NCBI RefSeq assembly: GCF_016863315.1 | Contig: NZ_BOOQ01000050.1 | Span: 1 to 64,000, forward strand | Direction of reading: 5' to 3' | Origin: Planotetraspora silvatica | GTDB taxonomy: Bacteria > Actinomycetota > Actinomycetes > Streptosporangiales > Streptosporangiaceae | Length of the DNA: 64,000 nucleotides | Shown here: piece after piece, positions 27,265 to 47,000 of the stretch | Numbering within the stretch: the stretch's first letter is position 1 | Layout of the letters: each line of letters begins with the position of its first letter | Program-made: the position numbers and the translations under genes | The notes under the pieces: generated by a model | Told to the model about the DNA's origin: nothing | What the model saw: the letters and a program-made list of their open reading frames with translations, nothing else | The model's database searches: none

Positions 27265-27295
27265 GAAGCCGGCCACGTGTCGCGTGGCCGGCTTC
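27265..27295. terminator. Bidirectional terminator between convergent operons
   Basis: GAAGCCGGCCACG and CGTGGCCGGCTTC form a perfect 13-bp stem with a 5-nt loop. It separates the ACAD pair (plus) from the enoyl-CoA hydratase gene (minus), whose stop codon overlaps the right arm. Confidence 0.85.
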
Positions 27296-28113: not shown

Positions 28114-28770
28114 TCACTCCTTCGCAGCGGGTGAGCCGTCGACGGCTTCAGGCGGGATGGTGAGCCCGAGAGCGGCGCCCCACAGCATGGACAGCGTGCG
28201 CACCGACTGGTCGAAGTCCACCGGTTTCGTCACCGCCGGGTTCCCGACGAACAGCGAGTACGCGGTCCTGCTCACCATCGAGGTGAGCGCGATCGCCGTC
28301 GAGTAAGGGTCGAGCCCCTCGGGCAGGACGCCGAGGCGTCCGACGGCGAGGATGTGCGCCTCGGTCCGGGCAAGGTAGGCCTTCGACCGTTCGGTGAGCA
28401 TCTCCTGCACGCCGGGGTCGAACGTCGCCACCTGTTCGATCACCCCCATCAGCGCGGCGTTCTCGCGGTATCTGACCAGGTACCTCCTGGTGGAGCGGAC
28501 GATTCCGCGTGCGACCTGATCGGTGTCGCGGTATTCGATCTCGCGTGTCGTCGGGGCCGTCTTCGACAGCACGCTCGAGGCGACGACGCGGAACAGCTCC
28601 TCCTTCGTCGCGAAATGCGTATAGAAGGTGCCGTGCGCGACCCGGGCCTCGCTCGCGATGTCGGTGATCCGCGCGTTCAGGAACCCGTCCCGTTCGAACA
28701 CGCGGCGCCCGGCCTCGACGAGCGCGTCGTAGGTGCGCTGGCCTCGTGGCGTCCGCCGTACCGTCGTCAC
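28114..28770 (-). CDS. TetR family regulator in the import operon
   Basis: Product of 218 residues from a GTG that overlaps the permease stop (GTGA). The DNA-binding domain is clear: RRVFERDGFLNARITDIASE followed by ARVAHGTFYTHFATKEELF (about 22-61). Its recognition region resembles that of the second TetR (35049-35810), which suggests paralogues reading related operators. It is co-transcribed with the LivKGFHM transporter and an enoyl-CoA hydratase. An acyl-CoA intermediate is the likely ligand, by analogy with other TetR regulators of acyl-CoA catabolism. Confidence 0.85.
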   Translation of the reverse strand: MTTVRRTPRGQRTYDALVEAGRRVFERDGFLNARITDIASEARVAHGTFYTHFATKEELFRVVASSVLSKTAPTTREIEYRDTDQVARGIVRSTRRYLVRYRENAALMGVIEQVATFDPGVQEMLTERSKAYLARTEAHILAVGRLGVLPEGLDPYSTAIALTSMVSRTAYSLFVGNPAVTKPVDFDQSVRTLSMLWGAALGLTIPPEAVDGSPAAKE

Positions 28771-30795: not shown

Positions 30796-31523
30796 GAGCC
30801 GGCCCCCGATACGGCGGATTCGACGCTGAGGTAGGCGCGTACGGTCTCGTCGTCCTCGGCCAACCGCGTGGCGGGGCCGTTGAGGACGATCGTGCCGTCG
30901 ACCATCACGGCGATATGGTCGGCCAGCCGGCGCGCGACCGCGAGGTTCTGCTCCACCATCAGCACCGTGGTCTGCCCCGCCGTGCGCTCCAGCACTTCGA
31001 CGACCTCACGCACCACCACCGGGGCGAGCCCCTTGGTCGGCTCGTCGATCAGCAGCAGGTCGTTGTCGTTCAGCAGGCCTCGGGCGAGCGACAACATCTG
31101 CTGCTGGCCGCCCGACAACGTGCCCGCCAGGTGTTTCGCGCGGTTCTTCAGCTCGGGGAAGAGTTCGTACACCAGGTCGTAGCGGGGACGCCCGCCCCGC
31201 CGTTCCGCGAGGCGGAGGTTCTCCCCCACGGTGAGGCCGTGGAACACGTCGCGGTCCTCGGGGACGTAGCCGATCCCCCGCCGCACGATGTCGTGCGTCT
31301 CCTCCCGGCCGATCTCGGATCCGGCGAACACGATGTGGCCGGTGCGGCGGACGAGCCCGAGGACCGCCCGCATCGTGGTGGTCTTGCCGACCCCGTTGCG
31401 GCCGAGCAGCACCGTCACCCGGTGCCGCGGCACCGTCAGGGAGACCCCTTGCAGGATGTGGGATTCGCCGAGGTAGGCGTGGACGTCGTCCAGTTCGAGC
31501 AGGGGATCGTGGTCCGGGTTCAC
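30792..31523 (-). CDS. ABC importer ATPase (LivF family)
   Basis: Product of 243 residues. Walker A is GRNGVGKTTT (about 41-50), the signature is LSGGQQQML, Walker B is LLLIDEPTKGL, and the H-loop follows in VLMVEQNLAVA. LivF-type length and TKGLAP are typical. It starts at a GTG overlapping the LivG stop. With the LivG-type ATPase it energises import by the LivHM channel. Confidence 0.9.
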   Translation of the reverse strand: MNPDHDPLLELDDVHAYLGESHILQGVSLTVPRHRVTVLLGRNGVGKTTTMRAVLGLVRRTGHIVFAGSEIGREETHDIVRRGIGYVPEDRDVFHGLTVGENLRLAERRGGRPRYDLVYELFPELKNRAKHLAGTLSGGQQQMLSLARGLLNDNDLLLIDEPTKGLAPVVVREVVEVLERTAGQTTVLMVEQNLAVARRLADHIAVMVDGTIVLNGPATRLAEDDETVRAYLSVESAVSGAGS

Positions 31524-32284
31524 AGCGGCTCCCCCAAGTAGGCGTCGCGGACCGTGGCGTCGGCGACGACGTTCTCCGGCGTGTCGAAGGCGAGCAGGGC
31601 GCCGTGGTGCATCACGGCGACCCGGTGCGCGAGCTCCAGAACGACGTCGATGTGGTGCTCGACCATCACAACGGTGGCGTCGGTGTCGCGCTGCACGTCG
31701 CGGATCAGCTCCATCAGCGACGGCAGGTCCTCGCTGTTCACCCCGGCCATCGGCTCGTCGAGCAACACGATCGTCGAACCGCTCGCGAGCATGATCGCCA
31801 GCTCCAGCTTCCGCCGGTCTCCGTGCGAGAGCGACCCGGCCGGCCTGTTCCGGGCTCCGTCCAGACCCACCCGCGCGAGGTGTTCGCGAATCGGGGCGAG
31901 CGCGGCGGCCGACCGGCCCGGCGCGCGCCAGAGTCCGCCGAACCGCTGGCCCTTCGCCTGAGCGGCCAGCCGTACGTTCTCCAGGACTGTGAGGCCGAGG
32001 AAGAGGTAGGAGGTCTGGAAAGTACGGCCGAGCCCGCGCCGGGCCCGGCGCGCGGGACTCGCCGTCGTCACATCCCGGCCGTGCAACGCGACCCGCCCCT
32101 GTGTGGGACGCATGGTCCCGCTGACGACGTTCAGAAGGCTGGTCTTGCCGGCCCCGTTGGGCCCGATCACCGCGACGAGCTCACCGGTGGCGACGCCGAG
32201 CGTGACGTCGCGCAGGATCTGAGCCCCGTCGATGACGAGGCTCAGATCCTCGACCGCGAGGGCCGCCGACTCCGTGTCGGTCAC
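31520..32284 (-). CDS. ABC importer ATPase (LivG family)
   Basis: Product of 254 residues. Walker A is GPNGAGKTSL (about 41-50), the signature is LSHGDRRKLE, Walker B is IVLLDEPMAGV, and VVMVEHHIDVVL carries the H-loop His. MAGVN and the longer helical region are LivG-type. It starts at a GTG one base after the LivK stop codon. It is the ATPase partner of the LivF-type protein. Confidence 0.9.
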   Translation of the reverse strand: MTDTESAALAVEDLSLVIDGAQILRDVTLGVATGELVAVIGPNGAGKTSLLNVVSGTMRPTQGRVALHGRDVTTASPARRARRGLGRTFQTSYLFLGLTVLENVRLAAQAKGQRFGGLWRAPGRSAAALAPIREHLARVGLDGARNRPAGSLSHGDRRKLELAIMLASGSTIVLLDEPMAGVNSEDLPSLMELIRDVQRDTDATVVMVEHHIDVVLELAHRVAVMHHGALLAFDTPENVVADATVRDAYLGEPL

Positions 32285-32285
32285 G

Positions 32286-33503
32286 TCACTGCCTCTTGAT
32301 GGGGTCGGTGACGGGGGTCTCCATCTCCTTGGCCGGGTAGGCCTTCACGAGCACCGGGGTCCACGAGCCGTCCGCACCCTGGGTGAGCCGCACGGCGAAC
32401 TGCGGGGTCAGCTCGGCGTGATCGGCGGCGCGCATGGTGACCTCGCCCTGGGGGCTCGTCCACGTGTAGTCGTCCAGCGACGAGGCCATCTTCTTCACGT
32501 CGGTGCCGCCTGCCTGGACCGCATGGACGATCATCGCCGCCGCGTTCCAGCCCGTCGGGTCGTCGTACTCCATCTGGTGCTTGTGCTGCGCCGACCAGGA
32601 GATGAGGAACTTCTCCTGGTCGTTGCCCGAGAAGCCCGGGTAGTAGTACAGGCTGAACAGCGCGTTCTCCACGCCCTTCGGGCCGAGAGCCTGGCCGATC
32701 GCGGCGTAGGTCTCCCGCGTGATCAGGTAGCCGACGAACTGGCTGGTGTCGAAGACCCCCTGGGCGCGCAGCGCGGCGAAGAGCTGATCGGTGCCCGCGC
32801 CGACCCACGAACTGTAGATGTAGTCGGGGTTCTCGGCCTTGATCTGGGCCGCCACCGCGGTGAAGTTCGTCGTGGTCGTCGGCAGCAGGTGCTCGGTGGA
32901 CTTGATGCCCAGCGGATCTATCTGGGCCTTCAGCGACGTGTAGGTGTCCTGCCCGTACGCGTAGTCCTGCCCGACGTAGGCGAGCCTTTTCGACGACAGA
33001 TCGCCTTCGCCGAGCAGCTTCGGGAAGATCTTCGAGCCGTTCTTGTTCGCGTTGCCGAACACCAGCGGGCTCATGCCGGTGAGCTGATAGCTCGCCGAGC
33101 CTCCGGGCAGATAGATGACGTTGTTCTGCACCGCCTGCTGGGCGACCGGGATGGCGATCGAGGAATCCGTGATGCCGGTGAGGAACGTGGCCCCCGACGC
33201 GATCATGCTCTTGGCCTTGGCGATGCCCACCGCCGGCTTCCCCGTGTCGTCGGCGTAGGTGACTTCGATCTTGCGTCCGTTGACCGTGTTCGTGCCCTTG
33301 GTGAGGTAGTTGAGCCCGGCTTCGAGCCCGTTGCGGAAGTCGGCCGCCTGCACGGCGTACGTGCCGGTGATCGACGAGATGACGCCGACCTTGACGCTGT
33401 CGGAGCCTCCCTGTGCGGAACCCGAGGTCGAACATGCCGCCATGGCGAGCCCCAACGGGACCATGAGCAGCGCCGCGCGAAGACGTGCGCCGGTGACGCG
33501 CAT
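32286..33503 (-). CDS. Lipoprotein substrate-binding subunit (LivK family)
   Basis: Product of 405 residues from the ATG at 33503 (AGGAG five bases upstream). A lipoprotein signal ends LAMAAC, so the protein should be membrane-anchored outside the cell. The mature part is a periplasmic-binding-protein type 1 fold of the HAAT family (VKVGVISSITGTYAVQAADF at its start; PVAQQAVQNNVIYLPGGS later). It determines the substrate of the LivGFHM importer; HAAT members bind amino acids, amides, aromatic acids or fatty-acid-like ligands. It is first in the seven-gene operon. Confidence 0.85.
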   Translation of the reverse strand: MRVTGARLRAALLMVPLGLAMAACSTSGSAQGGSDSVKVGVISSITGTYAVQAADFRNGLEAGLNYLTKGTNTVNGRKIEVTYADDTGKPAVGIAKAKSMIASGATFLTGITDSSIAIPVAQQAVQNNVIYLPGGSASYQLTGMSPLVFGNANKNGSKIFPKLLGEGDLSSKRLAYVGQDYAYGQDTYTSLKAQIDPLGIKSTEHLLPTTTTNFTAVAAQIKAENPDYIYSSWVGAGTDQLFAALRAQGVFDTSQFVGYLITRETYAAIGQALGPKGVENALFSLYYYPGFSGNDQEKFLISWSAQHKHQMEYDDPTGWNAAAMIVHAVQAGGTDVKKMASSLDDYTWTSPQGEVTMRAADHAELTPQFAVRLTQGADGSWTPVLVKAYPAKEMETPVTDPIKRQ

Positions 33504-33600
33504 AGACACTCCTGAGTTTCTGGTGACCAGCCGTCCAACTCCGCCGCGACGCGGTGCAGACGGAAATGCGGGGACAGACCGGGACTGTGAGGCGCGTCTC

Positions 33601-33629
33601 TGTCTATTTGACTATGAGGTCGGTGTCAA
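33601..33629 (-). promoter_or_regulatory. LivK-operon promoter with operator core in the spacer
   Basis: On the minus strand TTGACA (33624-33629) and TAGACA (33601-33606) are exactly 17 bp apart. The spacer contains CCGACCTCA, the core shared with the sites at 33734 and 35931. The transcript would start near 33594, about 90 nt before the LivK start. Confidence 0.65.
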
Positions 33630-33733: not shown

Positions 33734-33762
33734 TTGACGCCGACCTCAATCTCAGCTTGAGT
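33734..33762 (+). promoter_or_regulatory. Second operator-like site, facing the SGNH lipase gene
   Basis: TTGACGCCGACCTCAAT begins here on the plus strand and mirrors the LivK promoter site (TTGACACCGACCTCAT) in the same gap. CTCAA and CTTGAG form an additional imperfect inverted repeat. The -10 position is poor, so it may be an auxiliary operator rather than a promoter. The next plus-strand gene starts at 33915. Confidence 0.5.
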
Positions 33763-33914
33763 GTGACCCACGCAACACTCACGCCCTCATCCCCAGCTCA
33801 GCGAGCCCTTGGCGAGCCGATTCCGGCTGGGCCGGGCCCCTGCGGGCCACGCATTCGGCCATGCGCACACCGCGAATCCCGATCGTCACAAGCGAGACCG
33901 TTTGGGAGACGGCA

Positions 33915-34820
33915 ATGAAGACAACGATCATCCCCCTCCACCCGCGGGCGAGCGCCTGGCGCCGCCTGGCGGCCGTCGTCTTCGGTGTGGCTCTGGGCGC
34001 CGCGCTGATCACGGCTCCCGCCGGGGCCGCGTCCACAAGCACGCCGAGCGCCCTGTACGTCGCGCTCGGCGACTCCTACACCTCGGGTTACGGCCTGCCG
34101 ACACAACTGACCAGCCCGGCGATCATCGCGGGCTGCGGCCAGTCATCGAGCAACTACCCGAAACTCGTGGCGGCGCACTACGGCATCGCGGTCGACGATC
34201 GCAGCTGCGCCGGTGCCACCACGGCGGCGTTCACCAACTGGCAGGGCGCGAACCCGCCCCAGACCAGCGCCCTCGGCCCGAACACCGTGCTGGTCACCAT
34301 CGGCATGGGCGGCAACGACGTCGGCTCCTCGACCATCACCACGTCGTGCCTGCAGGCCGGCGCGGCCAACCACAGCTGCCAGACACCCCAGCTGAACAAC
34401 CTGATCAACACCAGCCTGGCCAATCTGGCCGCCCACCTCCCCGGCGACATCGCGCACATCAAGTCGCTCGCCCCCAACGCGACCATCGTCTACGTCAGCT
34501 ATCTGACCGGCCTGCCCAGCCAGTCCACGTGGACCGCGACGGGATGCTCGTCCAACCTGCCGTACTACTCCGGCGACATCACCTGGTTGAACAACTTCGG
34601 CCAGCGACTCAACAACACCCTCAGGACGGCCGCGCAGTCTCAGGGCGCGATCTTCGTCGACGCGCTGAACATGAGCGCGGGCCACGATCCCTGCCGGCCC
34701 GTCGGAACCCGCTGGAACGAGGGAATCCATCCCGCCGCACCGGCGACCGCGACCTTCCACCCGAACCTCGCGGGCCACTCCGCGTACGCCTCGATGATCA
34801 TCAGCGCTCTCGGCGGCTGA
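33915..34820 (+). CDS. Secreted SGNH/GDSL lipase-esterase
   Basis: Product of 301 residues from the ATG at 33915 (GGGAG upstream). The signal peptide spans residues 1-38 and ends AGAA. SGNH blocks are intact: block I VALGDSYTSGYG (nucleophile Ser), block III IGMGGNDVG and block V HPNLAGHSAY (catalytic His, about residue 289). Several cysteines suggest disulphides. The fold resembles Streptomyces secreted lipases of the SCO7513 type. Its promoter region contains a copy of the catabolic operator, so it could release an acid that the neighbouring importer takes up. Confidence 0.85.
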   Translation: MKTTIIPLHPRASAWRRLAAVVFGVALGAALITAPAGAASTSTPSALYVALGDSYTSGYGLPTQLTSPAIIAGCGQSSSNYPKLVAAHYGIAVDDRSCAGATTAAFTNWQGANPPQTSALGPNTVLVTIGMGGNDVGSSTITTSCLQAGAANHSCQTPQLNNLINTSLANLAAHLPGDIAHIKSLAPNATIVYVSYLTGLPSQSTWTATGCSSNLPYYSGDITWLNNFGQRLNNTLRTAAQSQGAIFVDALNMSAGHDPCRPVGTRWNEGIHPAAPATATFHPNLAGHSAYASMIISALGG

Positions 34821-35048: not shown

Positions 35049-35810
35049 TCAGCCGGGGGTGCGCTTGGAGCGGCCGCTTCGCGGCGTACCCCGGGCGGGC
35101 TTCGCCGCAGGTCCCGCGGCGGACTCCTCCGCCTCTTCGCCGGTCTTGATCTTCAATGCGTTCACCCAGAGTCGCGTGAGCATCGAGACGAGCTCCTCGA
35201 ACGGGATGTCGTCACCGAGGACGTAGGTGCCGTAGGCCATCCGGCCCACCATCGCGTCGACGGCCTTGGCCGCGAGCAGCGGGTCGAGATCGGGGTCGGC
35301 CAGGCCGCGTTCCTGCAGTTCCCTGATGCTGCGGGCGTTGCGCCGAGCGAAGGCCTCTCCGCGTTTGCGGCGCAGCTCGCGCAGGTTCTCGTCGCACGTG
35401 GCCGCCTGCTCAAGCGCGCGCATGAGCCGGGCGTTGCGGCGATACCACGTCAGGTAGGCGCGGTTCCCTGCCTCGATCTCCGCGATCGGGCCGCTGCCGT
35501 GGGTCGCCGCGCGGACGTGCGGGTGCAGCGCGGAGTCCTGGACCTGCTCGAGGACCGCCGCGAAGATCTCCTCCTTGCTGGTGAAGTACACGTAGAAGGA
35601 GCCGACCGAGACGTTGGCCTCGCTGCTGATGTCACTCAGACGGGCGTCGAGGTACCCGTCGTGCTCGAAGACGCGACGGGCCGCCGCTATGAGCCGCTCT
35701 CGTGTCCGCTGACCCCGTGCGGTGGCGGGCAGCGTTCGCTGCCCCGCGATGTCGGGCTCGGCGACTTCGGGCGGGGAATCTGTTGAGGTTGCACGGGATC
35801 GCGAAGGCAT
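35049..35810 (-). CDS. TetR family regulator next to the kinase/ACAD operon
   Basis: Product of 253 residues. A basic, disordered N-terminus (about 1-30) precedes a clear TetR domain: RRVFEHDGYLDARLSDISSE followed by ANVSVGSFYVYFTSKEEIF (about 45-84). A Lys/Arg/Ala-rich tail of 30 residues ends the protein, which may add nonspecific DNA contact. It is divergent from the 36020-41396 operon, with the operator-like promoter at 35931-35959 between them. It is the best candidate for the repressor of that site and perhaps of the whole regulon. Confidence 0.85.
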   Translation of the reverse strand: MPSRSRATSTDSPPEVAEPDIAGQRTLPATARGQRTRERLIAAARRVFEHDGYLDARLSDISSEANVSVGSFYVYFTSKEEIFAAVLEQVQDSALHPHVRAATHGSGPIAEIEAGNRAYLTWYRRNARLMRALEQAATCDENLRELRRKRGEAFARRNARSIRELQERGLADPDLDPLLAAKAVDAMVGRMAYGTYVLGDDIPFEELVSMLTRLWVNALKIKTGEEAEESAAGPAAKPARGTPRSGRSKRTPG

Positions 35811-35930: not shown

Positions 35931-35959
35931 TTGACGTTGACCTCAATTTCAGATAGAAC
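35931..35959 (+). promoter_or_regulatory. Promoter of the kinase/ACAD operon with operator in the spacer
   Basis: TTGACG (35931-35936) and TAGAAC (35954-35959) are exactly 17 bp apart. The spacer begins TTGACCTCAA (35937-35946), a near-palindrome related to the perfect palindrome at 24384 and to the LivK promoter site. A transcript would start near 35966, 54 nt before the GTG at 36020. Confidence 0.65.
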
Positions 35960-36019: not shown

Positions 36020-36820
36020 GTGCCGTACACGGAGATCGATCGGCAGCGCGACGACATGGGTGTCGTGACGATCACGATGAACCGCCCGCACAAGCTCAAC
36101 GCGTACACCACGACGATGTGCGAAGAGTTGTCCGCCGCCATCGACGACTTCGCCCGCACCGACGCCGACCGCGTCCTGGTCCTGACCGGCGCCGGGCGCG
36201 GGTTCTGCTCAGGCGGCGACCTCTCCGGTCACTTCGAGGCGCTGAAGGCCACGACACGTCAGCTCGGGCACGCCGCCGTGATGCGGGAGGGAATGCACCC
36301 GGTCTCCCGCCGTCTGTTCGCCCTGGACAAGCCCACGATCGCGATGGTCAACGGCCCGGCCATCGCCGGCGGCCTCACTCTCGCGCTGCTGTGCGACATC
36401 CGCGTCGCCGCCGACACCGCCGTCCTCGGCGACACCAGCGGCGCGGCCGGAGCGCTCCCGGACGAGGGAGGCGCGTGGCTGTTCCCCCGCGCCATGGGCT
36501 ACGACCAGGCGTTCAAGATGGTCGCCCTCAGCGAGAAGTACGACGCCGCCACGGCTCTGCGCCTCGGCCTGGTCACCGAGGTCGTCCCCGCCGCCGAGTT
36601 GCGTGAGCACACGATGGGCCTCGCGCGCGACCTCGCGTCGCGGGCCGCCGTCACCCTCCGCATCGCCAAACGGATCATGCGGCGAGGCCTCGAGTCCACG
36701 TTCGAGGCGTCGCTCGGCGACGCCGAGATGGCGGTCGTGATGAACAACGACACCGAGGACGCACGCGAAGGCGTCGCCGCCTTCCTCGAGCGCCGCAAGC
36801 CCACCTTCGAAGGCGCGTGA
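36020..36820 (+). CDS. Enoyl-CoA hydratase/isomerase family protein
   Basis: Product of 266 residues of the crotonase fold, starting at GTG 36020. VLTGAGRGFCSGGDLSGHF (about 55-73) forms the first oxyanion-hole segment, and LPDEGGAWLFPRAMG has the acidic residue of the PaaG-like active site. It is first in a six-gene operon whose other members are SDRs, a kinase and an ACAD. It probably handles the enoyl-CoA formed after the kinase/ACAD step; isomerisation instead of hydration is possible. Confidence 0.85.
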   Translation: MPYTEIDRQRDDMGVVTITMNRPHKLNAYTTTMCEELSAAIDDFARTDADRVLVLTGAGRGFCSGGDLSGHFEALKATTRQLGHAAVMREGMHPVSRRLFALDKPTIAMVNGPAIAGGLTLALLCDIRVAADTAVLGDTSGAAGALPDEGGAWLFPRAMGYDQAFKMVALSEKYDAATALRLGLVTEVVPAAELREHTMGLARDLASRAAVTLRIAKRIMRRGLESTFEASLGDAEMAVVMNNDTEDAREGVAAFLERRKPTFEGA

Positions 36821-36826
36821 AACGGC

Positions 36827-37624
36827 ATGACCGAAACCCCCCGCACGGTTCCCGGCCGTTCGGCCCCGCTGGCCGGCCGTACCGCGCTGGTCACCGGCGG
36901 ATCCCGCGGCATCGGCCTGGGCATCTCCCGCCTGTTCGCCGAACTCGGGGCCAACGTGCTCATCGTCTCCCGCCGCGAACCCTCCCTCCTCGAGGCGGTC
37001 CGCTCCATCACGGAGACCGGTGTGGACCCCGGCGCCGTGCTCCATCGCGTCGGCAAGGCGGACTCGGAGGACGACGCGCACGCGAGCGTGGCGCTCGCGG
37101 TCGAACGGTTCGGCGGCCTCGACATCCTGGTCAACAACGCCGCGACGAACCCCTATTTCGGTCCCCTCGTCGGGATCAGCCGCAGCCAGGCCGACAAGAC
37201 CGTCGCGGTCAACCTCTGGGGACCGCTCATGTGGGTCCAGGCCGCCTGGGAGCAGCACATGCGCGAGCACGGCGGCGCGGTGCTCAACATCTCCTCCACC
37301 AGCGGGATCGACGTGGACGTCGACCTCGGCTGGTACGGCGTCACCAAGGCCGGGCTGATCCACCTCACCAGGCTTCTCGCGATGGAACTGGCTCCGGCGG
37401 TCCGCGTCAACGCCATCTGCCCTGGCCTGGTCAAGACCGACATGTCCCGCGCGTTGTGGGAGAACGGCGAAGACGGGGTCGCCGCGACGATGCCGCTGGC
37501 CCGGCTCGGAAGTCCCCGGGACATCGCCGAGGCCGCGGCCTACCTCTGCTCTGACGCCGCCTCCTGGGTGACCGGGCAGACGCTGGCGGTCGACGGCGGT
37601 TATCTCGTACGGCCGTCGGCATGA
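36827..37624 (+). CDS. SDR family oxidoreductase
   Basis: Product of 265 residues. TGGSRGIGLGIS (about 24-35), NNAATNPYFG, the catalytic SSTSG and WYGVTKAG (YxxxK), and VDGGYLV at the end are all present. It starts 6 bp after the hydratase gene and its stop overlaps the start of the kinase gene (ATGA). It is likely NAD(P)-dependent and acts on a hydroxyacyl or ketoacyl intermediate of the same pathway. Its closest role model is the SDR found beside APH-type kinases and ACADs in ACAD10/11-like clusters. Confidence 0.85.
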   Translation: MTETPRTVPGRSAPLAGRTALVTGGSRGIGLGISRLFAELGANVLIVSRREPSLLEAVRSITETGVDPGAVLHRVGKADSEDDAHASVALAVERFGGLDILVNNAATNPYFGPLVGISRSQADKTVAVNLWGPLMWVQAAWEQHMREHGGAVLNISSTSGIDVDVDLGWYGVTKAGLIHLTRLLAMELAPAVRVNAICPGLVKTDMSRALWENGEDGVAATMPLARLGSPRDIAEAAAYLCSDAASWVTGQTLAVDGGYLVRPSA

Positions 37625-38640
37625 CCGAGCTCCCGGGTCTCGACCTCAGGAGGTTGGAGGTCTGGCTGGACCGGAATCGGCCGGGCCTGCGCCAGGGCGA
37701 GCTCAGCGGGCGGCTGCTGACCGGCGGGAAGTCCAACCTCACCTACCGGCTCACCGACGGCGTCCACGCATGGGCGCTGCGCCGCCCGCCGCTCGGCCAC
37801 GTTCTGCCGACCGCCCACGACATGGCCCGGGAATTCCGCGTGATCAGCGCCCTGCGCGGGACGGGCATCCCGGTCGCCGGCGCCGTCGTGCTCGGTGAGG
37901 ACCCCGAGGTCGCGACAGCGCCGTTCTACCTGATGGACTTCGTCGACGGCCGCGTCCTGAGCTCCGCCGACGACACCCTCGCGCTGTCCCCGCAGGAAGC
38001 CGTCAGGACCGGTGAGCTGCTGGTCGACACCCTCGCCGCCCTTCACGTGCTCGACCCCGAGTCGGTCGGCCTGGCGGATTTCGGTCGCCCGGCAGGGTTC
38101 CTCGAACGGCAACTGAAGCGCTGGCACCAGCAGTGGCGCTCTTCCGAGACGCGCCCGCTCGACCTGCTTCAGGCCACAGTGGACAGGCTCTCCACGGCGG
38201 TCCCCGACGGAGCGCGACCGGCGATCGTGCACGGCGACTTCCGGTTGGCGAACACGATCTTCACGTCGGCCCTCGACCGGATCGCCGCCGTCATCGACTG
38301 GGAGATGGCCACGGTCGGCGATCCGCTCACGGACCTGGGCGTGCTCATGGTCTACCAATCGCTCGCCGCGGACGGCGATTTCGGCCTCGCCCCGCTGCGG
38401 CCCGTTGCAGGCCACCTCACCGCCGCTCAAATGGCCGAACGCTACCGGACACGGTCGTCCCGTGACCTCGGGCGGCTGAACTGGTACATCGGGTTCGGTT
38501 TCTTCAAGTTGGCAGTCATCTCCGAGACCATCCGCCATCGCCATCTCGCCGGCAAGACGGTGGGAGCGGGCTTCGATCGCCCCGGCGACGACGTCCCCGC
38601 GATGCTCGAGGCGGCCCTGCAAGCCCTCTCCGACGATTAG
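37621..38640 (+). CDS. APH-type phosphotransferase, ACAD10/11-associated
   Basis: Product of 339 residues with a kinase fold of the aminoglycoside phosphotransferase superfamily. It has LTGGKSNLTYRL (glycine-rich loop, about 35-46), ALRRPP (ATP-binding Lys position replaced by Arg), the catalytic loop IVHGDFRLANTIF (about 202-214) and the Mg-binding IDWEMATVGDP. This subfamily is the one fused to or adjacent to ACAD10/ACAD11-type dehydrogenases. It phosphorylates the 4-hydroxyl of 4-hydroxyacyl-CoAs in the lva (levulinate) pathway and in mammals. The ACAD gene follows 9 bp downstream, which supports that reaction rather than drug resistance. Confidence 0.85.
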   Translation: MTELPGLDLRRLEVWLDRNRPGLRQGELSGRLLTGGKSNLTYRLTDGVHAWALRRPPLGHVLPTAHDMAREFRVISALRGTGIPVAGAVVLGEDPEVATAPFYLMDFVDGRVLSSADDTLALSPQEAVRTGELLVDTLAALHVLDPESVGLADFGRPAGFLERQLKRWHQQWRSSETRPLDLLQATVDRLSTAVPDGARPAIVHGDFRLANTIFTSALDRIAAVIDWEMATVGDPLTDLGVLMVYQSLAADGDFGLAPLRPVAGHLTAAQMAERYRTRSSRDLGRLNWYIGFGFFKLAVISETIRHRHLAGKTVGAGFDRPGDDVPAMLEAALQALSDD

Positions 38641-38649
38641 GGAGACATC

Positions 38650-39876
38650 ATGGACTTCGCGCACAGTGAGCGATCTCTTCAACTGCAGGAGGACCTGCGG
38701 CGATTTCTCGACGAACACGTTTACCCCGCCGAGCCGGTCTACGAGGAGCAGGCGGCCGCCAACCGCGCGGCCGGCACCACCTTCCGCACTCCCGCCGTGC
38801 TCGCCGGACTCAAGGTGGAAGCGCGCAAACGCGGGCTGTGGAACCTGTTCCTGCCCGACGAGCGGCACGGCGCCGGGTTGAGCGTCCTCGACTACGCACC
38901 CGTCGCCGAACTCAGCGGCCGGTCGCACCTGATCGCGCCCGAGGTCATGAACTGCGCGGCACCCGACACCGGCAACATGGAACTGCTCGCCATGTTCGCC
39001 ACCGAGGCTCAGTCCGCGCAGTGGCTGACCCCACTACTCGAGGGCGAGATCCGCTCCTGCTTCTCGATGACAGAACCGGCCGTGGCCTCCTCCGACGCCG
39101 CCAACATCGCCACCACCATCACGCTCGACGGCGACGAATACGTCGTCAACGGCCGCAAGTGGTGGTCGACCGGAGCGCTTCGCGAGGAGTGCAAGGTCGC
39201 CATCGTGATGGGCGTCAGCGACCCGGACGCCGCCAAGTACTCGCGCCACTCGATGATCCTGGTGCCCCTGGACACCCCCGGGGTCACAGTCGAGCGCTCC
39301 ACCAGCGTCTTCGGCTACGACGACGGCCCCCACGGCGGGCACGGCATCATCGACTACGACAACGTCCGGGTGCCGCGCGAGAACCTGCTCGGTCCCCAGG
39401 GCGGCGGCTTCATGATGGCGCAGGCCCGCCTCGGACCCGGCCGGATCCACCACTGCATGAGGTCCCTCGGAATGGCGGAGCGAGCGCTCGAACTGATGTG
39501 TGACCGCGCCGCCTCACGGACGGCCTTCGGCCGGCCGATCGCCTCTCATGGCGTCGTCCAGGAGTGGATCGCCGAGTCACGGCTGGCCATCGACCAAGCC
39601 CGGCTGATGGTTCTCAAGGCCGCGTGGCTCATCGACACCGTCGGCGCCGGCGAGGCCCGCACCGAGATCTCAGCGATCAAGGTGGCCGCGCCTCGCGCGG
39701 CGAGCTACGTGCTCGACCGCGCCATCCAGGTGCACGGCGGCGCGGGCGTCTCCGCGGAGACCCCGCTCGCCGGAGCATGGGCCCAGCTCAGGACACTGCA
39801 TCTGGCCGACGGGCCGGACGAGGTGCACCTCAGGTCGATCGCCCGTCAGGAACTGCGCCGAAGGGGCGCCGCGTGA
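38650..39876 (+). CDS. ACAD10/11-like acyl-CoA dehydrogenase
   Basis: Product of 408 residues. The ACAD10/11 subgroup pattern is visible: NCAAPDTGNMELLAMF (about 99-114), SCFSMTEPAVASSDAANIAT (about 137-156) and GRKWWSTGA. The C-terminal domain has ASRTAFGRPIASHGVVQEWI and IQVHGGAGVS. In characterised members the enzyme acts after the kinase: it eliminates phosphate from 4-phosphoacyl-CoA and helps rearrange it to a 3-hydroxyacyl-CoA. AGGGAG precedes the ATG. Its stop overlaps the next SDR start. Confidence 0.85.
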   Translation: MDFAHSERSLQLQEDLRRFLDEHVYPAEPVYEEQAAANRAAGTTFRTPAVLAGLKVEARKRGLWNLFLPDERHGAGLSVLDYAPVAELSGRSHLIAPEVMNCAAPDTGNMELLAMFATEAQSAQWLTPLLEGEIRSCFSMTEPAVASSDAANIATTITLDGDEYVVNGRKWWSTGALREECKVAIVMGVSDPDAAKYSRHSMILVPLDTPGVTVERSTSVFGYDDGPHGGHGIIDYDNVRVPRENLLGPQGGGFMMAQARLGPGRIHHCMRSLGMAERALELMCDRAASRTAFGRPIASHGVVQEWIAESRLAIDQARLMVLKAAWLIDTVGAGEARTEISAIKVAAPRAASYVLDRAIQVHGGAGVSAETPLAGAWAQLRTLHLADGPDEVHLRSIARQELRRRGAA

Positions 39877-40655
39877 CCCCGGCGGGTGCGATCATCGTCG
39901 TCACCGGCGGCGGCAGCGGCATCGGCGCCGCCCTCGCGGCCCGCTTCGCCGCCGAGGGCGCCGAAGCGGTGATCGTCGCCGACATCGACGCCGGAGCCGC
40001 CCGGTCGGTCGCCGGACGGATCGGGGCCCTCCCCGAACCCCTCGACGTCGCCGACCCCGCCGCCGTGACAGACCTGGTCGAGCGGACGGTGACGCGGTTC
40101 GGACGCGTCGACCTGTTCTGCGCCAACGCCGGAATCTCCACCGAGGTCGGCCTCGACGCACCCGACGAGACGTGGAGACGGGCATTCGACGTCAACGTCA
40201 TGGCCCACGTGTACGCGGCACGAGCCGTCGTGCCGCACATGCTCGCTCGTGGCCGCGGCCACTTCCTGGCCACGGCCTCGGCGGCCGGGCTGCTCACGGC
40301 TCCCGCCGACGCGCCCTACTCGGTGACCAAGCACGCCGCCGTCGGATTCGCCGAGTGGCTCGCGATCGCCTACGGCGACCGTGGCATCGACGTCAGCGTG
40401 CTGTGCCCGATGGGCGTGGCCACCCCCATGCTGATGAGACCTCTGGAGGCGGGCGTCGCCTCCGCCAGGGCCGTTGCGGCGTCCGGGGAGATTCTCAGCC
40501 CGGAGTCCGTCGCCGATGCCGTGATCAAGGGTCTCGCCGCCGGCGACTTCCTCATCCTCCCGCACCCGGAGGTCGGCACGTTCTGGGCGAAGAAGGCCGC
40601 ACGCCCGGACCGCTGGCTGACGGCCATGCGCGGGCTCGGCGGCGAGCCCTCCTGA
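39873..40655 (+). CDS. SDR family oxidoreductase
   Basis: Product of 260 residues from the GTG at 39873, overlapping the ACAD stop (GTGA). TGGGSGIGAALA (about 11-22), CANAGIS, and ASAAG with PYSVTKHA (YxxxK) are intact. The C-terminus (LPHPEVGTFWAKKAARPDRW) is of the type found in SDRs near fatty-acid and steroid catabolic genes. It is probably co-transcribed with the kinase and ACAD. The substrate is not predictable from sequence. Confidence 0.8.
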   Translation: MTPAGAIIVVTGGGSGIGAALAARFAAEGAEAVIVADIDAGAARSVAGRIGALPEPLDVADPAAVTDLVERTVTRFGRVDLFCANAGISTEVGLDAPDETWRRAFDVNVMAHVYAARAVVPHMLARGRGHFLATASAAGLLTAPADAPYSVTKHAAVGFAEWLAIAYGDRGIDVSVLCPMGVATPMLMRPLEAGVASARAVAASGEILSPESVADAVIKGLAAGDFLILPHPEVGTFWAKKAARPDRWLTAMRGLGGEPS

Positions 40656-40682
40656 CGAATCGGACATCAAGGAGCACACATC

Positions 40683-41396
40683 ATGGGCAAACTCGATGGC
40701 AGGGTCGCCGTCGTCACCGGAGGTTCTTCCGGCATCGGCGCGGGCGCCGCCCGCCACCTGCGAGACGAGGGAGCCCAGGTGTGCATCACCGACGTCAACG
40801 CCCCTGACGACGGTGGCGGCCTGATGTTCCTCGATCACGACGTGTCCTCGGCTGACGCGTGGCGGCGGGTGCACGACCGGGTCGTGGCCGAGTTCGGCAG
40901 AGTAGACGTCCTGGTGAACAACGCGGGGATCTTCCTGCCCGGCATGATCGCCGACATCTCGCTAGAGGTGTGGAATCGGACCCTCGCCGTCAACCAGACC
41001 GGAATCCTGCTCGGTATGCAGACGTTCGCGGACGTTCTGGAGGAGTCCGGCCGCGGTTCCATCGTCAACATGTCGTCGTACGCGGGAATGCAAGGGCATG
41101 GAACCTCCGTCGGCTACCAGGCGGCGAAGTGGGCCGTCCGCGGCATGACCCGCTTCGCCGCACGTGAGTTCGCCCCTCGCGGGATCCGCGTCAACGCCGT
41201 CGTGCCGGGATTCGTCGACACGCCCATGATGGCGGCCGGAGGGAAAGAGCTTCGGGACACCGTCGTGCGCCGCACTCCGCTCGGCCGCCTGGGCGACGTC
41301 ACCGACATCGCGTATGCGATCAGCTATCTGTCCGGTGACGAGAGCGCCTTCGTCACCGGAACCGAGATCGTCGTGGACGGCGGGATGCTCGCGTAG
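40683..41396 (+). CDS. SDR family oxidoreductase, steroid-dehydrogenase-like
   Basis: Product of 237 residues. TGGSSGIGAGAA (about 13-24), NNAGIF, SSYAG with GYQAAKWA (YxxxK) and the C-terminal VVDGGMLA mark a classical SDR. The pattern resembles 3-alpha/20-beta-hydroxysteroid dehydrogenases. AAGGAG precedes the ATG at 40683. It is last in the operon and is followed by a strong terminator. Confidence 0.8.
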   Translation: MGKLDGRVAVVTGGSSGIGAGAARHLRDEGAQVCITDVNAPDDGGGLMFLDHDVSSADAWRRVHDRVVAEFGRVDVLVNNAGIFLPGMIADISLEVWNRTLAVNQTGILLGMQTFADVLEESGRGSIVNMSSYAGMQGHGTSVGYQAAKWAVRGMTRFAAREFAPRGIRVNAVVPGFVDTPMMAAGGKELRDTVVRRTPLGRLGDVTDIAYAISYLSGDESAFVTGTEIVVDGGMLA

Positions 41397-41501: not shown

Positions 41502-43358
41502 TCAGGAGATGTTCGAGGTGCTTGCGCAGTCGGCGAAGGTGTTGGTTCCAGTGCCGCCTGCACAGGAGTCCGACGGGCCGAAGCCGCCGTTGAGGTAGTC
41601 GTTCCCGGCCATCCCGACAAGGGTGTCCTTGCCGTCGCCCCCCCACAGTTCGTCGTTTCCGTCCATGGCGAGAAGCAGGTCGTCACCGGCCATGCTGACC
41701 AGTTTCTCGCCGTTTTCACGGCCGCTCAGCGTGTCGTCGTAGGCCGTGCCGTAGATCCATTCGAAGTCGTTGAAGACTCGATCACCCTCGCCCGGCATGC
41801 CGTTCGGGGTCACCCGGCTGAGGCTCACATCGACCCCGGCGGTCGCGTCAAGGTACAGCAGCGCATCGGTGCCGACGCCCCCGTTCATGCTGTCGGCACC
41901 CACGCTCCCCAGGACCACGTCGTTGCCCTCGTTGCCCTCGATCCGATCATCACCCGCGCCGCCGTAGAGGGCGTCGTCGCCGGGACCACCGTCGATGACG
42001 TCGTCACCACCCAGCCCGCAGATCACGTCGTTCCCGCCGGCGCCGTAAACGGTGTCCGGCCCAGGAGACCCGTACAGGACGTCGTCGAACGGCGAACCGT
42101 AGAGCGGCTCGGAACCGGAACTGGAGCCGGTGACGAAATCACCCGCACAGTCCTGCGCCTGGTCACGCAGAACGACGCCCCAGCGGTTCGCTTCGGTCTC
42201 ACCGTTCGTCAGCAGGTAACGGCCATCGCGGGACAGCACCGAGCCTGTGACGGGCGCCGTAACCGATGACGCCCGGCCGTCCATACCGGTCAGCACGCGA
42301 CGCGCACCTGTCGCCAGGTTCCAGAAGACCAGAACCGGACTGGGGCTGCCGCCCCATTGCGAGTAGAGCACGTAGCGGCCGTTCGCGCTGATGGTGGCAC
42401 CGGTGGCGGCGCCGGTGTCGGGTAAGCCCGCGCCGGCTCCCCGGGTGACCGTCCCGCTCACCAGATCCAGAACGTAGACATCCGGGAAGGTGTCGGTGTC
42501 CTCGGGGATCAGGGCATCCTGGGTGACGAGCGTCATCTTGCCGCTGTTGCTGATGCCGCCGATCGGGTTCTGTTCCCAGCCGAACAGGCTGGCCACTCGG
42601 GTATACGTTCCGGTCACCTGATCGTGGACCGACACCCAACTCTTCGAACCGTCCAGCCAGGTGAACACGATGAACCGGCCCCCGGGGCTGACCGCCGAGC
42701 CGTAGGCGACCGACGGGGCGCCGTTCACGGGGGCAAGAGGATCTTTCAGCAACCGGGTGACCCCCGTCACCAGATCGCGTACGTACCAGTTCAGGGTCCC
42801 CGCTCCCGGAACCTGAGGGAGCCGCGACTTGAATACGACCGTGCGCCCCCCGTCGAAGGACAATTCGCCTATCCAGCTTTGCTTCTGGCCGTCCGGCACA
42901 TCCAGCCGGGTTTCAACGCCCGTGGTCAGGTCCCTCACGTACAGCTGGGAGCAACTGCCGCCGCATTCGGTGAGGTAGACCGCCCTGCTGCCATCTTCGT
43001 TCAGGTAAGCGCGGCTTGTGGGGAGGGAGATGGACTGCCCGGTTCTCCGGTTCAGAACGACGCTGTGCGTCTCATTCGGTTGGTAGGACGTGGAAGCGTA
43101 AACGATCGTGTTGCCATCGGCGCTGATGGCGGATGCGACGAAGTCGCCTGTGTACGGCGCGGAGTCGCCGTAGGTCCCGGAAAAACCTGCCACCGTCGCC
43201 GCCGGAAGCGGCGGACTCGGCACAGTCGCCGTGCTGAAACCGCCGGCGGCGTCCGCATGGGCCGGGGACAGCGGGGACACCAATGTGGTGGACAGTGCGG
43301 CGGCCAGGACGACCAGCGGCAGTAAGGCCCTGCCCTTATGGACGAAGACACGCCTCAT
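41502..43358 (-). CDS. Secreted beta-propeller plus RTX calcium-binding protein
   Basis: Product of 618 residues from the ATG at 43358 (GAGGAG upstream). A signal peptide covers residues 1-36 (ending AHA). Residues about 45-400 contain repeated WD40/TolB-like propeller blades (ISADGNTIVYAS, VSPGGRFIVFTW, ISANGRYVLYSQ, LSRDGRYLLTNG). From about 421 to 605 there are RTX nonapeptide-type repeats such as YGAGGNDVICGLGGDDVIDG and YGGAGDDRIEGNEGND, which bind calcium in a parallel beta-roll. Such repeats are commonest in Gram-negative type I-secreted proteins; here an ordinary Sec signal is present. Function unknown, probably extracellular binding or structural. Confidence 0.85.
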   Translation of the reverse strand: MRRVFVHKGRALLPLVVLAAALSTTLVSPLSPAHADAAGGFSTATVPSPPLPAATVAGFSGTYGDSAPYTGDFVASAISADGNTIVYASTSYQPNETHSVVLNRRTGQSISLPTSRAYLNEDGSRAVYLTECGGSCSQLYVRDLTTGVETRLDVPDGQKQSWIGELSFDGGRTVVFKSRLPQVPGAGTLNWYVRDLVTGVTRLLKDPLAPVNGAPSVAYGSAVSPGGRFIVFTWLDGSKSWVSVHDQVTGTYTRVASLFGWEQNPIGGISNSGKMTLVTQDALIPEDTDTFPDVYVLDLVSGTVTRGAGAGLPDTGAATGATISANGRYVLYSQWGGSPSPVLVFWNLATGARRVLTGMDGRASSVTAPVTGSVLSRDGRYLLTNGETEANRWGVVLRDQAQDCAGDFVTGSSSGSEPLYGSPFDDVLYGSPGPDTVYGAGGNDVICGLGGDDVIDGGPGDDALYGGAGDDRIEGNEGNDVVLGSVGADSMNGGVGTDALLYLDATAGVDVSLSRVTPNGMPGEGDRVFNDFEWIYGTAYDDTLSGRENGEKLVSMAGDDLLLAMDGNDELWGGDGKDTLVGMAGNDYLNGGFGPSDSCAGGTGTNTFADCASTSNIS

Positions 43359-44062
43359 ATGAACTCCTCGTACGTGATTGGACGTCGGAAACGGGCGGAT
43401 GGATTCTCCCGCGGGCTCTCTCCATGGCCGGGCCGTGCATTCGTTGCACCGGGCACCCTGTCGGCCTGGCGACGGTCCGGTCATTTGTGCGGCCCGACGT
43501 GACAGGGCACTGGTATGTCCAAGGGACGCGCACGAACGCGAATTGACAGGCCCAAGCGTGTGCGGATCACATTGCCGAGTAACGAACCCGGTATGAATGC
43601 GAGGCCACGGATGAGCCATATCAAAGCCCAAACCTGAATCCTTCGTGAATTCGGCCATATGGGCGCTTGACCAACGCGCAGTTTCTAAATTTCATCCGAA
43701 AAATCTATGCGTGGCCATTCTGGAAGTTCGACGACGACGTCGGGCTGTCAGGGTCCCGGCTCCGCCGACAATGGCGACGGTCGCGCCCGCCGGCTCCGGA
43801 TGTCAGCGCAGCTCGGCCGACACATGCGTCGATCGGGACATCGGCAACGCGCTGATCGTGCGCCGAGCCGTTCACACCGGGACAGACCCTGACCCTGGTG
43901 CCCTCCATCACCTGACCGGCGCCTCCAGCACCGGGCTCGCAGCCACCCGGTTGCGGGGGCCGGTCATGTTCGGCGAATGTGGTCGAGCACGACCGGCCAC
44001 AGCGGCTCGATCGGTAGAGTTGGGTCGCCTCATGCGCCCCACCCGAAAGGCCAAGATCACCC
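43359..44062. other. Intergenic region between the RTX gene and dnaE
   Basis: Over 700 bp hold no recognisable gene. Short open frames on both strands have poor codon quality and no ribosome sites. An AT-rich patch (about 43600-43720) may hold the RTX-gene promoter, and 44000-44062 must hold signals for dnaE. I see no hairpin or known RNA motif. Confidence 0.4.
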
Positions 44063-47000
44063 GTGGCTGATTCGTTCGTACATCTGCATGTTCACACTGA
44101 GTACTCGATGCTGGATGGCGCGGCGAAGATCGGCAAATTGGCTACGCGAGCAGCTGAACTGGGGATGCCGGCGATCGCGATGAGCGACCACGGCAACCTG
44201 TTCGGCGCCTACGAGTTCCAGCAGAAGATGACCGCTGCCGGGGTGAAGCCGATCATCGGGATCGAAGGCTACGTCAGCCCCGAATCCCGCTTCTACAAGC
44301 ACGCGGTGTTCTGGGGGGAACCCCATCAGCGCAAGTCCGACGAGCGGACCGGGCTGGGCGGCGACGTGTCGGCCAGCGGCACCTACCTGCACAAGACGAT
44401 GTGGGCGGTCAACGCCCAAGGGCTGCGCAACCTGTTCCGGATCTCTTCGCTGGCCTCGCTCGAGGGCCACATGAAGAAGTATCCGCGCATGGACGACGAA
44501 CTTTTCGAGCAGTACCACGAAGGGATCGTCGCCACCACCGGCTGCCCCTCCGGTGCGGTCCAGACAAGGCTCCGGCTCGGCCAGTACGACAAGGCTCTGG
44601 AGCATGCCGCCAAGTACCAGGAGATCTTCGGGCGCGACAATTACTTCCTGGAGATCATGGATCACGGCGGGATCCCGATCGAGACGGGGGTCCGCAGCGA
44701 CCTTCTGCGCATCGGTGAGACGCTGGGCATACCGCCATTGGTCACCAACGACTCCCACTACGTCACCGAAGACCAGTCCACCGCCCACGACGCGTTGCTC
44801 TGCGTCGGCACCAACTCCCAGATCAACGACCCGAGCCGGTTCCGGTTCTCCGGCAACGGCTACTACGTGCGCTCCGCCGAGGAGATGTGGGCGCTCGACC
44901 CGAACTCCGAAACGTGGGCACAGGGCTGCAAGAACACCCTGCTGATCGCTGAGCGTGTCGAGTCCTACGACGAGGTGTTCGCCCACCGTGACCTCGCCGC
45001 CAAGTTCCCGGTCCCCGAAGGGGAGACCGAGATGAGCTGGCTTCGCAAGGAGGCACAGCGTGGCGCGGTCCGCCGTTACGGCGACCCGGTGCCGGCGGAA
45101 GTGCTGGAACGGATCGAGTACGAGCTCGGCGTCATCGAGAACATGGGGTTCCCCGGCTACTTCCTCGTCGTCGCCGACATCTGCAAATACGCGCGCGACA
45201 ACGGAATCTGGATCGGCCCGGGCCGAGGATCGGCCACGGGCTCCATGGTGGCCTACGTCACCGGCATCACCGAACTCGACCCCATCGAGCATTCCCTGCT
45301 GTTCGAGCGGTTCCTGAATCCCGAGCGCATCTCCATGCCCGACGTCGACCTCGACTTCGACGAGCGTCGTCGCGGCGACATGATCCGCTACGTCACCGAA
45401 CGGTACGGCGAGGACAACGTCTCGCTGATCATCACCTACATGACGATCAAGTCGAAGGCGGCGGTCAAGGACGCCGCTCGCGTCCTCGGCTACCCCTTCA
45501 TGGTCGGCGAAAAGATCACCAAGGCGTTCCCTCCCGCCGTCATGGGCAAGGAGATCCCGCTCACCGGCATCTTCGACGACAAACACCCTCGCTACCCCGA
45601 GGCGACCGAGCTCCGGAAGCTGTACGAGGACGACCAGGACGTCAAGCAGGTCATCGACACCGCTCTCGGCCTGGAAGGACTGACCCGCGGCACCGGCGTG
45701 CACGCCGCGGGCGTCATCTTGTCCTCCCAGCCTCTGATCGACGTGATGCCGATCTTCATGCGGGCCGACGACGGCGCCCGCATCACCGGCTTCGACGGGC
45801 CCAGCAGCGAGAACATGGGCGCGCTGAAGATGGACTTCCTCGGCCTGCGCAACCTGACCGTCATCGGCGACGCCGTCCACAACGTGAAGGCCAACCGCGG
45901 CATCGACCTGGACATGCTCTCCCTGTCGCTGGACGACAAGAACACCTACGAGTTGCTGGCACGCGGTGACACGCTCGGGGTGTTTCAGCTCGACAGCTCG
46001 ATGATGCGCGACCTCACCAAGCTGATCGCCCCAGCCCGGTTCGAGGACATCTCATCGGTCCTGGCGCTGGGCCGCCCCGGTCCCATGGGAGCCAACGCCC
46101 ACACCAACTACGCGCTTCGCAAGGCCGGGCAACAGGAGATCAAGCCGATCCACCCCTCGCTCACGGAGGCACTCGAGCCGATCCTCGGCACGACCTACCA
46201 CCTGGTGGTCTACCAAGAGCAGGTCATGGCCATCGCCCAGCAACTGGCCGGGTACACCCTCGGCGGCGCCGACATCCTGCGCAGAGCGATGGGCAAGAAG
46301 AAGAAGGAGGAGATGGACAAGCAATGGGCCACCTTCTCCTCCGGAATGGTCGGCAAGGGATACACCGAAGAAGCCGCCAAAGCCGTCTGGGACGTCCTGG
46401 AACCGTTCAGCTCCTACGGATTCAACAAGTCCCACACCGCCGGTTACGGGCTCGTCTCCTACTGGACCGCCTACCTCAAGGCCAACTACCAGGCCGAGTA
46501 CATGGCCGCCCTGCTCACCTCGGTCGGCACCAACAAGGATCGGATGGCGCTCTACCTCGCTGAATGCCGTCGCATGAAACTGAAAGTCCTGCCGCCGGAC
46601 GTCAACGAATCCGGCCTGCGTTTCAGCGCTGTCGGTGAGGACGTGCGGTTCGGGCTCGGCGCCGTCCAGAACGTCGGCGAGAACGCCATCAACGGCATCA
46701 TCTCCGCCCGAACCGCAAAGGGCGCCTTCACCGATTTCAATGATTTCCTGACGAAGGTCCCCCAGGTCGTCTGCAACAAACGCACCATCGAATCGCTGAT
46801 CAAAGCCGGTGCGTTCGACGAACTCGGCCACTCCCGAATGGGTCTGGTTCAGATCCATGACCAGGCGGTGGACTCGGTCATCGACGTCAAACGGAAAGAG
46901 GCCCTCGGCCAGGACTCGCTGTTCGGCGCCTTCGATGACGACGGCGGTGAAAACGGCAGCGTCTTTCACGTCATGATTCCCGATGGCGAGTGGGACAAGA

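Follow-up and report, generated by a model that had tools for sequence, protein, structure and literature searches.

What pathway is served by an APH-type kinase gene of Planotetraspora silvatica that directly precedes a gene for an acyl-CoA dehydrogenase (ACAD) of the ACAD10/11 type, and which neighboring genes act together with this pair? We analyzed a window of 64,000 nucleotides (contig C50, bases 1–64000, of the 8.66-Mb genome), in which the pair lies at 37621–39876. The gene families, the diagnostic residues and the clade of the ACAD, the conserved gene company and a shared promoter element were observed here. On this sequence evidence, the region of about 20.7–41.4 kb probably forms a single inducible regulon that breaks down a carboxylic acid with a bulky or cyclic body and a 4-hydroxy (or lactone, or 4-oxo) group.

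The ORF list and the translations gave six co-directional genes on the forward strand. A crotonase gene (ECHb; 36020–36820; Pfam ECH_1, 1e-56) is followed by genes for a short-chain dehydrogenase/reductase (SDR1; 36827–37624; Pfam adh_short_C2, 5.8e-59), the kinase (37621–38640; Pfam APH, 1e-44), the ACAD (38650–39876; Pfam Acyl-CoA_dh_1, 3e-37), SDR2 (39873–40655; NCBIfam SDR models) and SDR3 (40683–41396; Pfam adh_short_C2, 2.4e-60). SDR1 overlaps the kinase gene, and the ACAD gene SDR2, by 4 bp, and 9 bp separate the kinase stop from the ACAD start. The original prediction had named these six genes, including three SDRs and a crotonase, in this order and in one operon, with the same 9-bp spacing, and the coordinates bore it out on each of these points. 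SDR1 and SDR2 showed 44 and 49% identity with SDRa and SDRb, respectively, of a Tsukamurella gene module described below. The start of SDR2 at 39873 was chosen by us, the mechanical ORF beginning at 39564; SDR2 was scanned against NCBIfam only, with a best match of 5.8e-46 under the cut-off of that model. Codon-position G+C supported five of the six operon genes, SDR2 being absent from that list.

Homology and phylogeny place the ACAD in the ACAD10/11 clade. The solved proteins most like it were 4hr3 (2e-137) and the ACAD11 of mouse and human (9e-136 at best), all within 2e-137 to 1e-131, the best ordinary ACAD giving 6e-43. Identity was 54% with mouse ACAD11 and 53–54% over the human and mouse proteins, and among the ACADs of this genome that lie outside the clade, the closest reached only about 34–36%. 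In a phylogenetic tree of 46 rows, a clade of 35 rows with 100/100 support contained the window ACAD, mouse and human ACAD11, and 4hr3; seven rows from other ACAD families lay outside it, and ACADa and ACADb, two further ACADs of the window, and L014 were on long branches with unsure placement. This tree was also the check on whether the enzyme falls among ordinary dehydrogenases, and it grouped the enzyme with ACAD11. The available portions of PMC12440821 report that R626, H634, and R637 of mouse ACAD11 bind the 4-phosphate, that D753 is the base, and that R631 is conserved across ACADs generally. They also report that nonconservative substitutions of R626, H634, and R637 affected the ACAD step most severely, R637K having only a partial effect, and that replacing the Arg/His/Arg set or the Asp base in ACAD10/11 disrupted phosphate elimination (PMC12440821). 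The window ACAD has R260, R265, H268, R271, and D387 at the positions of mouse R626, R631, H634, R637, and D753, with the Asp base (D387) in place of Glu. All five residues were present in 38 of the 46 rows, one more row ending before the last residue, and none of the seven rows from other families carried the full set. The ACAD10/11 assignment made earlier for this gene thus stands on both the clade and the Arg/His/Arg and Asp residues, and the protein is likely to be a phosphate-eliminating enzyme. Of the 197 genomes searched in the class, 117 had an ACAD11-type gene (E value of 1e-100 or better).

The best solved relatives of the kinase were 9o56 (7.5e-64), 3dxp (8.8e-53), and ACAD11 (2e-41), and its identity with the kinase domain of mouse ACAD11 was 31%. 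It keeps the catalytic Asp and Asn and the Arg of the substrate cavity as D206, N211, and R163 for D220, N225, and R176. These residues were kept in all 121 homologue rows counted after seven redundant loci (L001, L002, L011, L012, L015, L016, and L018) had been left out, namely 32 paired with an ACAD, 77 solo, and 12 undecided. A solo kinase was defined by the lack of an ACAD match above 300 bits within 4.5 kb; in 4-kb loci no more than about 1.5 kb could be seen to either side, contig ends cut some named loci, and four solo rows (L044, L047, L050, and L137) do have, nearby, a divergent ACAD that carries every one of the residues. The kinase residues were rejected as proof of function because the same residues occur in the 77 solo rows. 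Since unpaired relatives share them, the kinase was assigned by its ACAD partner: it adjoins, across the 9-bp gap, an ACAD10/11-type gene, and is likely a 4-hydroxyacyl-CoA kinase. The pairing label clustered on the kinase tree, with 10 changes against a shuffled mean of 29.5, a contrast inflated by near-copies. An antibiotic-resistance APH was rejected as well, as the NCBIfam APH(3') model, whose cut-off is 205 bits, gave only 31.1 and the solved kin include ACAD11. Many kinase homologues (36–52% identical; part of L019–L046 and of L059–L130) had no strong ACAD11 nearby and kept the catalytic residues. Four metagenome bins (L096, L097, L099, and L104), whose titles name Bifidobacterium breve or Klebsiella pneumoniae, carry kinases that group with those of Acidimicrobiia or gammaproteobacterial bins, and their titles look wrong.

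The span of 36020–41396 given in the original prediction held the genes named for it and was too small, as the cluster begins at about 20.7 kb and ends at about 41.4 kb. At its left end, three genes on the reverse strand encode a FabG-like SDR (SDR0; 20701–21450, start approximate; Pfam adh_short_C2 within the ORF 20701–21984), which is 58% identical to FabG of the Tsukamurella module, a FadD4-like acyl-CoA ligase (21504–23051; AMP-binding, 1.2e-71; NCBIfam FadD4, 613.8 bits, under the cut-off of 850), and a thiolase (23091–24290; Thiolase_N, 2.8e-64). On the forward strand follow a MaoC-type enoyl-CoA hydratase (24467–24940; MaoC_dehydratas, 7.7e-23), 45% identical to that of the Tsukamurella module, ACADa (24971–26161), and ACADb (26140–27258). 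The reverse strand then carries genes for an enoyl-CoA hydratase/isomerase (ECHa; 27294–28112; ECH_1, 1.8e-55), for TetRa, a TetR regulator in the importer operon (28114–28770; TetR_N, 2.2e-12), and for the importer, LivM- and LivH-type permeases (28767–29885 and 29893–30795; BPD_transp_2, 8.4e-32 and 6e-38), a LivF-type ATPase (30792–31523; ABC_tran, 5.2e-28), a LivG-type ATPase (31520–32284), whose Walker A and signature motifs were found by eye in the translation, and a substrate-binding lipoprotein (32286–33509; Peripla_BP_6, 3.7e-48; lipobox by eye). The best solved matches of the binding protein, 3n0x and then 3nnd, are labelled only as possible substrate binding proteins, and no ligand was deduced from them. 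A GDSL/SGNH hydrolase (33861–34820, forward strand; Lipase_GDSL_2, 3.4e-25) is apparently secreted, judging from a signal peptide seen by eye, which a start near 33915 would suit better. A second TetR regulator, TetRb (35049–35810, reverse strand; TetR_N, 1.4e-14), has homologues of 55–59% identity in three Nocardia clusters. The importer, ligase, beta-oxidation genes, and hydrolase that had been named earlier as companions of the pair are real genes by their Pfam and NCBIfam matches.

The two-gene ACAD at 25.0–27.3 kb had been overlooked in the original prediction. ACADa and ACADb had their best solved matches in opposite subunits of two-subunit ACADs, ACADa in 4x28_A and then 6wy9_A (Tcur3483), and ACADb in 6wy8_A (Tcur3481). 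Because adjacent genes matched opposite subunits, the sequences suggest that the two proteins form a heteromeric ACAD, ACADa being one subunit and ACADb its partner. We take 4x28 to be FadE26/FadE27, with FadE26 as chain A, and both this enzyme and Tcur3481/Tcur3483 presumably act on steroid acyl-CoAs. The window proteins match these solved enzymes (4x28 and 6wy8/6wy9) at only 123–128 and 87–108 bits and differ from them in that actinobacterial ACADa often adjoins ACAD11. ACADa keeps the Glu of its LNNERVA motif, which we assume to be catalytic. ACADb scored 198.5 bits with the NCBIfam IpdE2 model, a two-subunit ACAD family with a cut-off of 450. ACADa-type genes (E value of 1e-110 or better) were present in 55 of the 197 genomes of the class, and tables read by eye showed ACAD11 and ACADa directly adjacent in 12 of these 55 (G000, G007, G060, G095, G096, G127, G144, G180, G181, G190, G200, and G217).

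A promoter element ties the operons together. The pattern TTGACRYYGACCTCA had three exact matches in the genome, all within the cluster: one facing the importer operon (33614–33629, reverse strand), one facing the GDSL hydrolase gene (33734–33749, forward strand), and one before the kinase operon (35931–35946, forward strand). A weaker copy between the thiolase and MaoC genes (24381–24406, forward strand) shared 19 of 24 bases with the kinase-operon promoter, a score reached by none of 300 shuffles, the highest of which was 18; ten other window stretches taken as intergenic scored 15–18 of 24. With at most two mismatches, the 16-base element gave five matches in the window against 0.11 expected. 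The pattern TTGACRYYGACCTCA itself, with one mismatch allowed, had 10–17 matches per genome against 3–8 for reversed-pattern controls. Planotetraspora kaengkrachanensis had four exact matches, three of them at the equivalent places of its cluster, and kept the palindrome of the weaker copy. Its sole exact copy outside the cluster lies at G003:C40:17363-17377. Three congeners without the cluster had no exact copy. A matrix built from the element sites was run on the three Nocardia loci that have a TetRb homologue and found two, four, and three places at 17 bits, at least seven of these nine lying between genes by their coordinates, and shuffles gave at most one per locus. The sequences suggest TetRb (or TetRa) as the probable repressor of three or four promoters, acting via this TTGAC-N3-GACCTCA element, and we propose TetRb as the candidate reader. 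The element common to the importer, hydrolase, and kinase operons supports the dedicated uptake-to-breakdown route that had been postulated for this locus. No weight was given to TetRb as a gamma-butyrolactone receptor: among the NCBIfam models ScbR scored highest (63.8 bits, cut-off 150), but the four other cluster TetRs scanned gave similar scores, at 54–67 bits. Within 24.2–41.6 kb, no consensus sigma-70-like site was found (0.7 expected), and one terminator-like site was found against 4.8 expected.

The nearest named relative is P. kaengkrachanensis NBRC 104272, in which the whole cluster is kept in the same order with 85–98% identity. The cluster was present in two of five genomes of the genus, the window genome included (kinase 90% and ACADa 94% identical). 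In the window genome, the dnaE gene for DNA polymerase III alpha starts 2.7 kb past the cluster, and in the draft assembly of P. kaengkrachanensis the cluster and a 99%-identical dnaE are on different contigs, which suggests that the cluster occupies another chromosomal site there. The genome of P. silvatica has a second kinase–ACAD11 pair (G000:C5:63830-65965; L010 7825–12288), 49 and 61% identical to the first, with an ACADa and an ACADb of its own behind it. This paralogous locus, recognized by a kinase and an ACADa about 1.3 kb apart, occurred in five of five genomes of the genus, the ACAD11 in the gap having been checked in the window genome. Outside the genus, a 55-kb plasmid of Tsukamurella tyrosinosolvens (plasmid 28; L133) carries the run SDR-SDR-QOR-HAD-FabG-MaoC-KIN-ACAD11-ACADa-ACADb-PTE-ligase, in which KIN is the kinase, and large portions of this module also occur in Cryobacterium, Micromonospora, and three Nocardia loci. 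The Tsukamurella plasmid also bears an MFS transporter. We counted homologues of seven module proteins (at least 45% identity and 70% coverage) near 80 named kinase loci, 17 of which were paired, 58 solo, and 5 of unknown pairing. Near the paired kinases SDRa was found 8 times, FabG 7, MaoC 6, QOR 5, SDRb 5, ACADa 2, and ACADb 2; a FabG homologue lay near one additional kinase of unknown pairing, and each of the seven was found near none of the 58 solo kinases.

From these observations we infer which class of substrate is used, which regulator acts, and every reaction of the route in its order, as follows. The secreted GDSL hydrolase would cleave an ester or lactone to release the acid, which the lipoprotein and the Liv-type ABC importer would bring in, and the FadD4-like ligase would form the CoA ester. 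An SDR may reduce a 4-oxo group and so set the 4-hydroxyl; a lactone or 4-oxo acid would be the natural precursor. The kinase would then phosphorylate the 4-hydroxyl with ATP, and the ACAD10/11-type enzyme would eliminate the phosphate, FAD cycling within the enzyme, to give the 2-enoyl-CoA. MaoC or crotonase, then an SDR, then the thiolase would complete that turn of beta-oxidation, and ACADa/ACADb would oxidize the remaining bulky acyl-CoA in later turns. The ligase should precede the kinase because the latter's substrate is the CoA ester: in the accessible parts of PMC12440821 and PMC11342911, the kinase domains act on the 4-hydroxyl of 4-hydroxyacyl-CoAs, not on the free acid. In the ACAD step described in the same parts, phosphate is eliminated with the involvement of FAD and without an external acceptor, yielding 2-enoyl-CoA that is partly hydrated further (PMC12440821, PMC11342911). 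Of the chemistry originally predicted for the pair, phosphorylation of the 4-hydroxyl agrees with these sources and conversion toward a 3-hydroxyacyl-CoA does so only in part, the ACAD product being mainly the 2-enoyl-CoA, of which a part is hydrated to the 3-hydroxyacyl-CoA (PMC12440821, PMC11342911). The best solved match of the PTE-family gene adjoining the Tsukamurella module was 4if2, a phosphotriesterase homology protein. Relatives of this protein are, we assume, lactonases, and this neighbor hints at lactones. In the window genome, a PTE gene 67% identical to that of Tsukamurella lies on contig C19 beside a ligase gene likewise 67% identical.

Among the known systems most like this one is the lva operon of Pseudomonas putida for levulinate, which also has separate genes for a kinase (LvaA) and an ACAD (LvaC) in one cluster, together with a ligase. 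Compared by gene content, the window cluster adds an ABC importer, a secreted hydrolase, a two-gene ACAD, and TetR regulators. LvaB presumably lies between the kinase and ACAD genes of the lva operon; no such gene stands between the window kinase and ACAD, where there are only 9 bp, the search having covered this gap. Mammalian ACAD10/ACAD11 have the same diagnostic ACAD residues in one chain, whereas the window has two proteins in a cluster with an importer and regulators. Bacterial orthologues of LvaA and LvaC could each stand in for the matching ACAD10 domain, as the available text of PMC12440821 and PMC11342911 describes. The Tsukamurella module, which shares homologues of SDRa, SDRb, FabG, MaoC, KIN, ACAD11, ACADa, and ACADb with the window cluster, is contiguous and has HAD, QOR, and PTE, whereas the window version is split over several operons and has the importer and the GDSL hydrolase.

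Could the cluster simply be a short-chain route like that of lva, for levulinate, 4-hydroxyvalerate, or gamma-valerolactone, with the extra genes serving ordinary beta-oxidation? The kinase–ACAD logic is that of the Pseudomonas operon, as far as the available parts of PMC12440821 and PMC11342911 describe it, and a ligase and SDRs are present. In our judgement, however, a C5 acid would hardly call for four SDRs and a thiolase on top of a two-gene ACAD, an importer, and a secreted hydrolase, and the 9-bp gap leaves no room for an LvaB-like gene, which makes this route unlikely. Clean-up of 4-hydroxy fatty acids from lipid oxidation, a source discussed for mammalian ACAD10/11, would use the same core chemistry, which the excerpts of PMC12440821 and PMC11342911 describe as demonstrated on 4-hydroxy fatty acyl-CoAs. 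Against it, the second kinase–ACADa locus occurs in all five genomes of the genus and the extra cluster in two of the five; since this extra cluster has its own importer and regulators, an external growth substrate fits better, and we give clean-up a low probability. That the kinase acts on another acyl-CoA or an alcohol, with the ACAD an ordinary dehydrogenase and the neighbors a generic catabolic set, accords with kinase residues common to many unpaired homologues, which do not define its specificity. The ACAD, however, has the Arg/His/Arg set and the Asp base (as given in the accessible part of PMC12440821) and its place in the ACAD10/11 clade, so this last explanation is very improbable.

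Several points weigh against a regulon for a bulky 4-hydroxy acid or lactone. ACADa and ACADb scored far under the curated PimC and IpdE2 cut-offs. The company contrast is confounded by kinship, as many solo loci are of other classes or phyla, where proteins can be expected to reach 45% identity with those of Tsukamurella less often. The element came from the very sites that it is later said to mark, so that the evidence is its genome-wide rarity and not the match itself; its copies in the two Planotetraspora species are orthologous rather than independent, the fourth copy, of the MaoC–ACAD operon, is weaker, and two of the five window matches with up to two mismatches fall outside the cluster. 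The module loci L056, L058, and L133 had no matrix site at 17 bits, and among 40 control loci, nearly all unpaired (L125 being paired), nine had sites at 17 bits and two at 19 bits. No counterpart of the Tsukamurella HAD, QOR, or PTE was found inside the window cluster. The lactone idea leans on the PTE neighbor in one other organism; the three PTE-family genes of this genome are on contigs other than that of the cluster, and no kinase or ACAD11 match was found in the 20 kb around the closest of them, on C19.

Beyond the cluster, a gene at 41502–43658 on the reverse strand, just past the kinase operon, encodes a protein that has calcium-binding repeats and matches a TolB-like propeller. A 52% identical paralogue stands directly before the second kinase pair on C5 (L010 5574–7646), and no match was found beside the cluster of P. 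kaengkrachanensis (L051). The dnaE gene is at 44063–47650 on the forward strand; a second copy, 61% identical, is on C2, and in two of the four congeners the more distant type (60%) was the only one seen.

Neither the chemistry nor the two key enzyme families are new, and what appears new is such an actinobacterial regulon; no description of one was found among the literature matches listed, from a search of limited reach. Papers of 2024 and 2025, in their available parts, assign the mammalian enzymes that remove the hydroxyl of 4-hydroxy acids, and the bacterial operon described there handles levulinate (PMC12440821, PMC11342911). Tentatively, and with the balance leaning against it, the regulon may represent a pathway of actinobacteria, not described so far, that acts on 4-hydroxy acids (gamma-lactones) of polycyclic or terpenoid type and in which the kinase and ACAD10/11 enzyme would clear a hydroxyl neighboring a ring and the heteromeric bulky-substrate ACAD would continue beta-oxidation of the ring or side chain, with its own importer and an operator-linked regulon, KIN-ACAD11-ACADa-ACADb being a mobile module of Streptosporangiaceae, Nocardia, Tsukamurella, and Cryobacterium. 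If the regulon reading is true, its regulated link to a two-gene ACAD for bulky substrates would extend the known bacterial diet of 4-hydroxy acids and lactones, would provide enzymes for bio-based chemicals and for natural products that contain lactones, and would give a testable role to many genes whose sole annotation is "phosphotransferase family protein".

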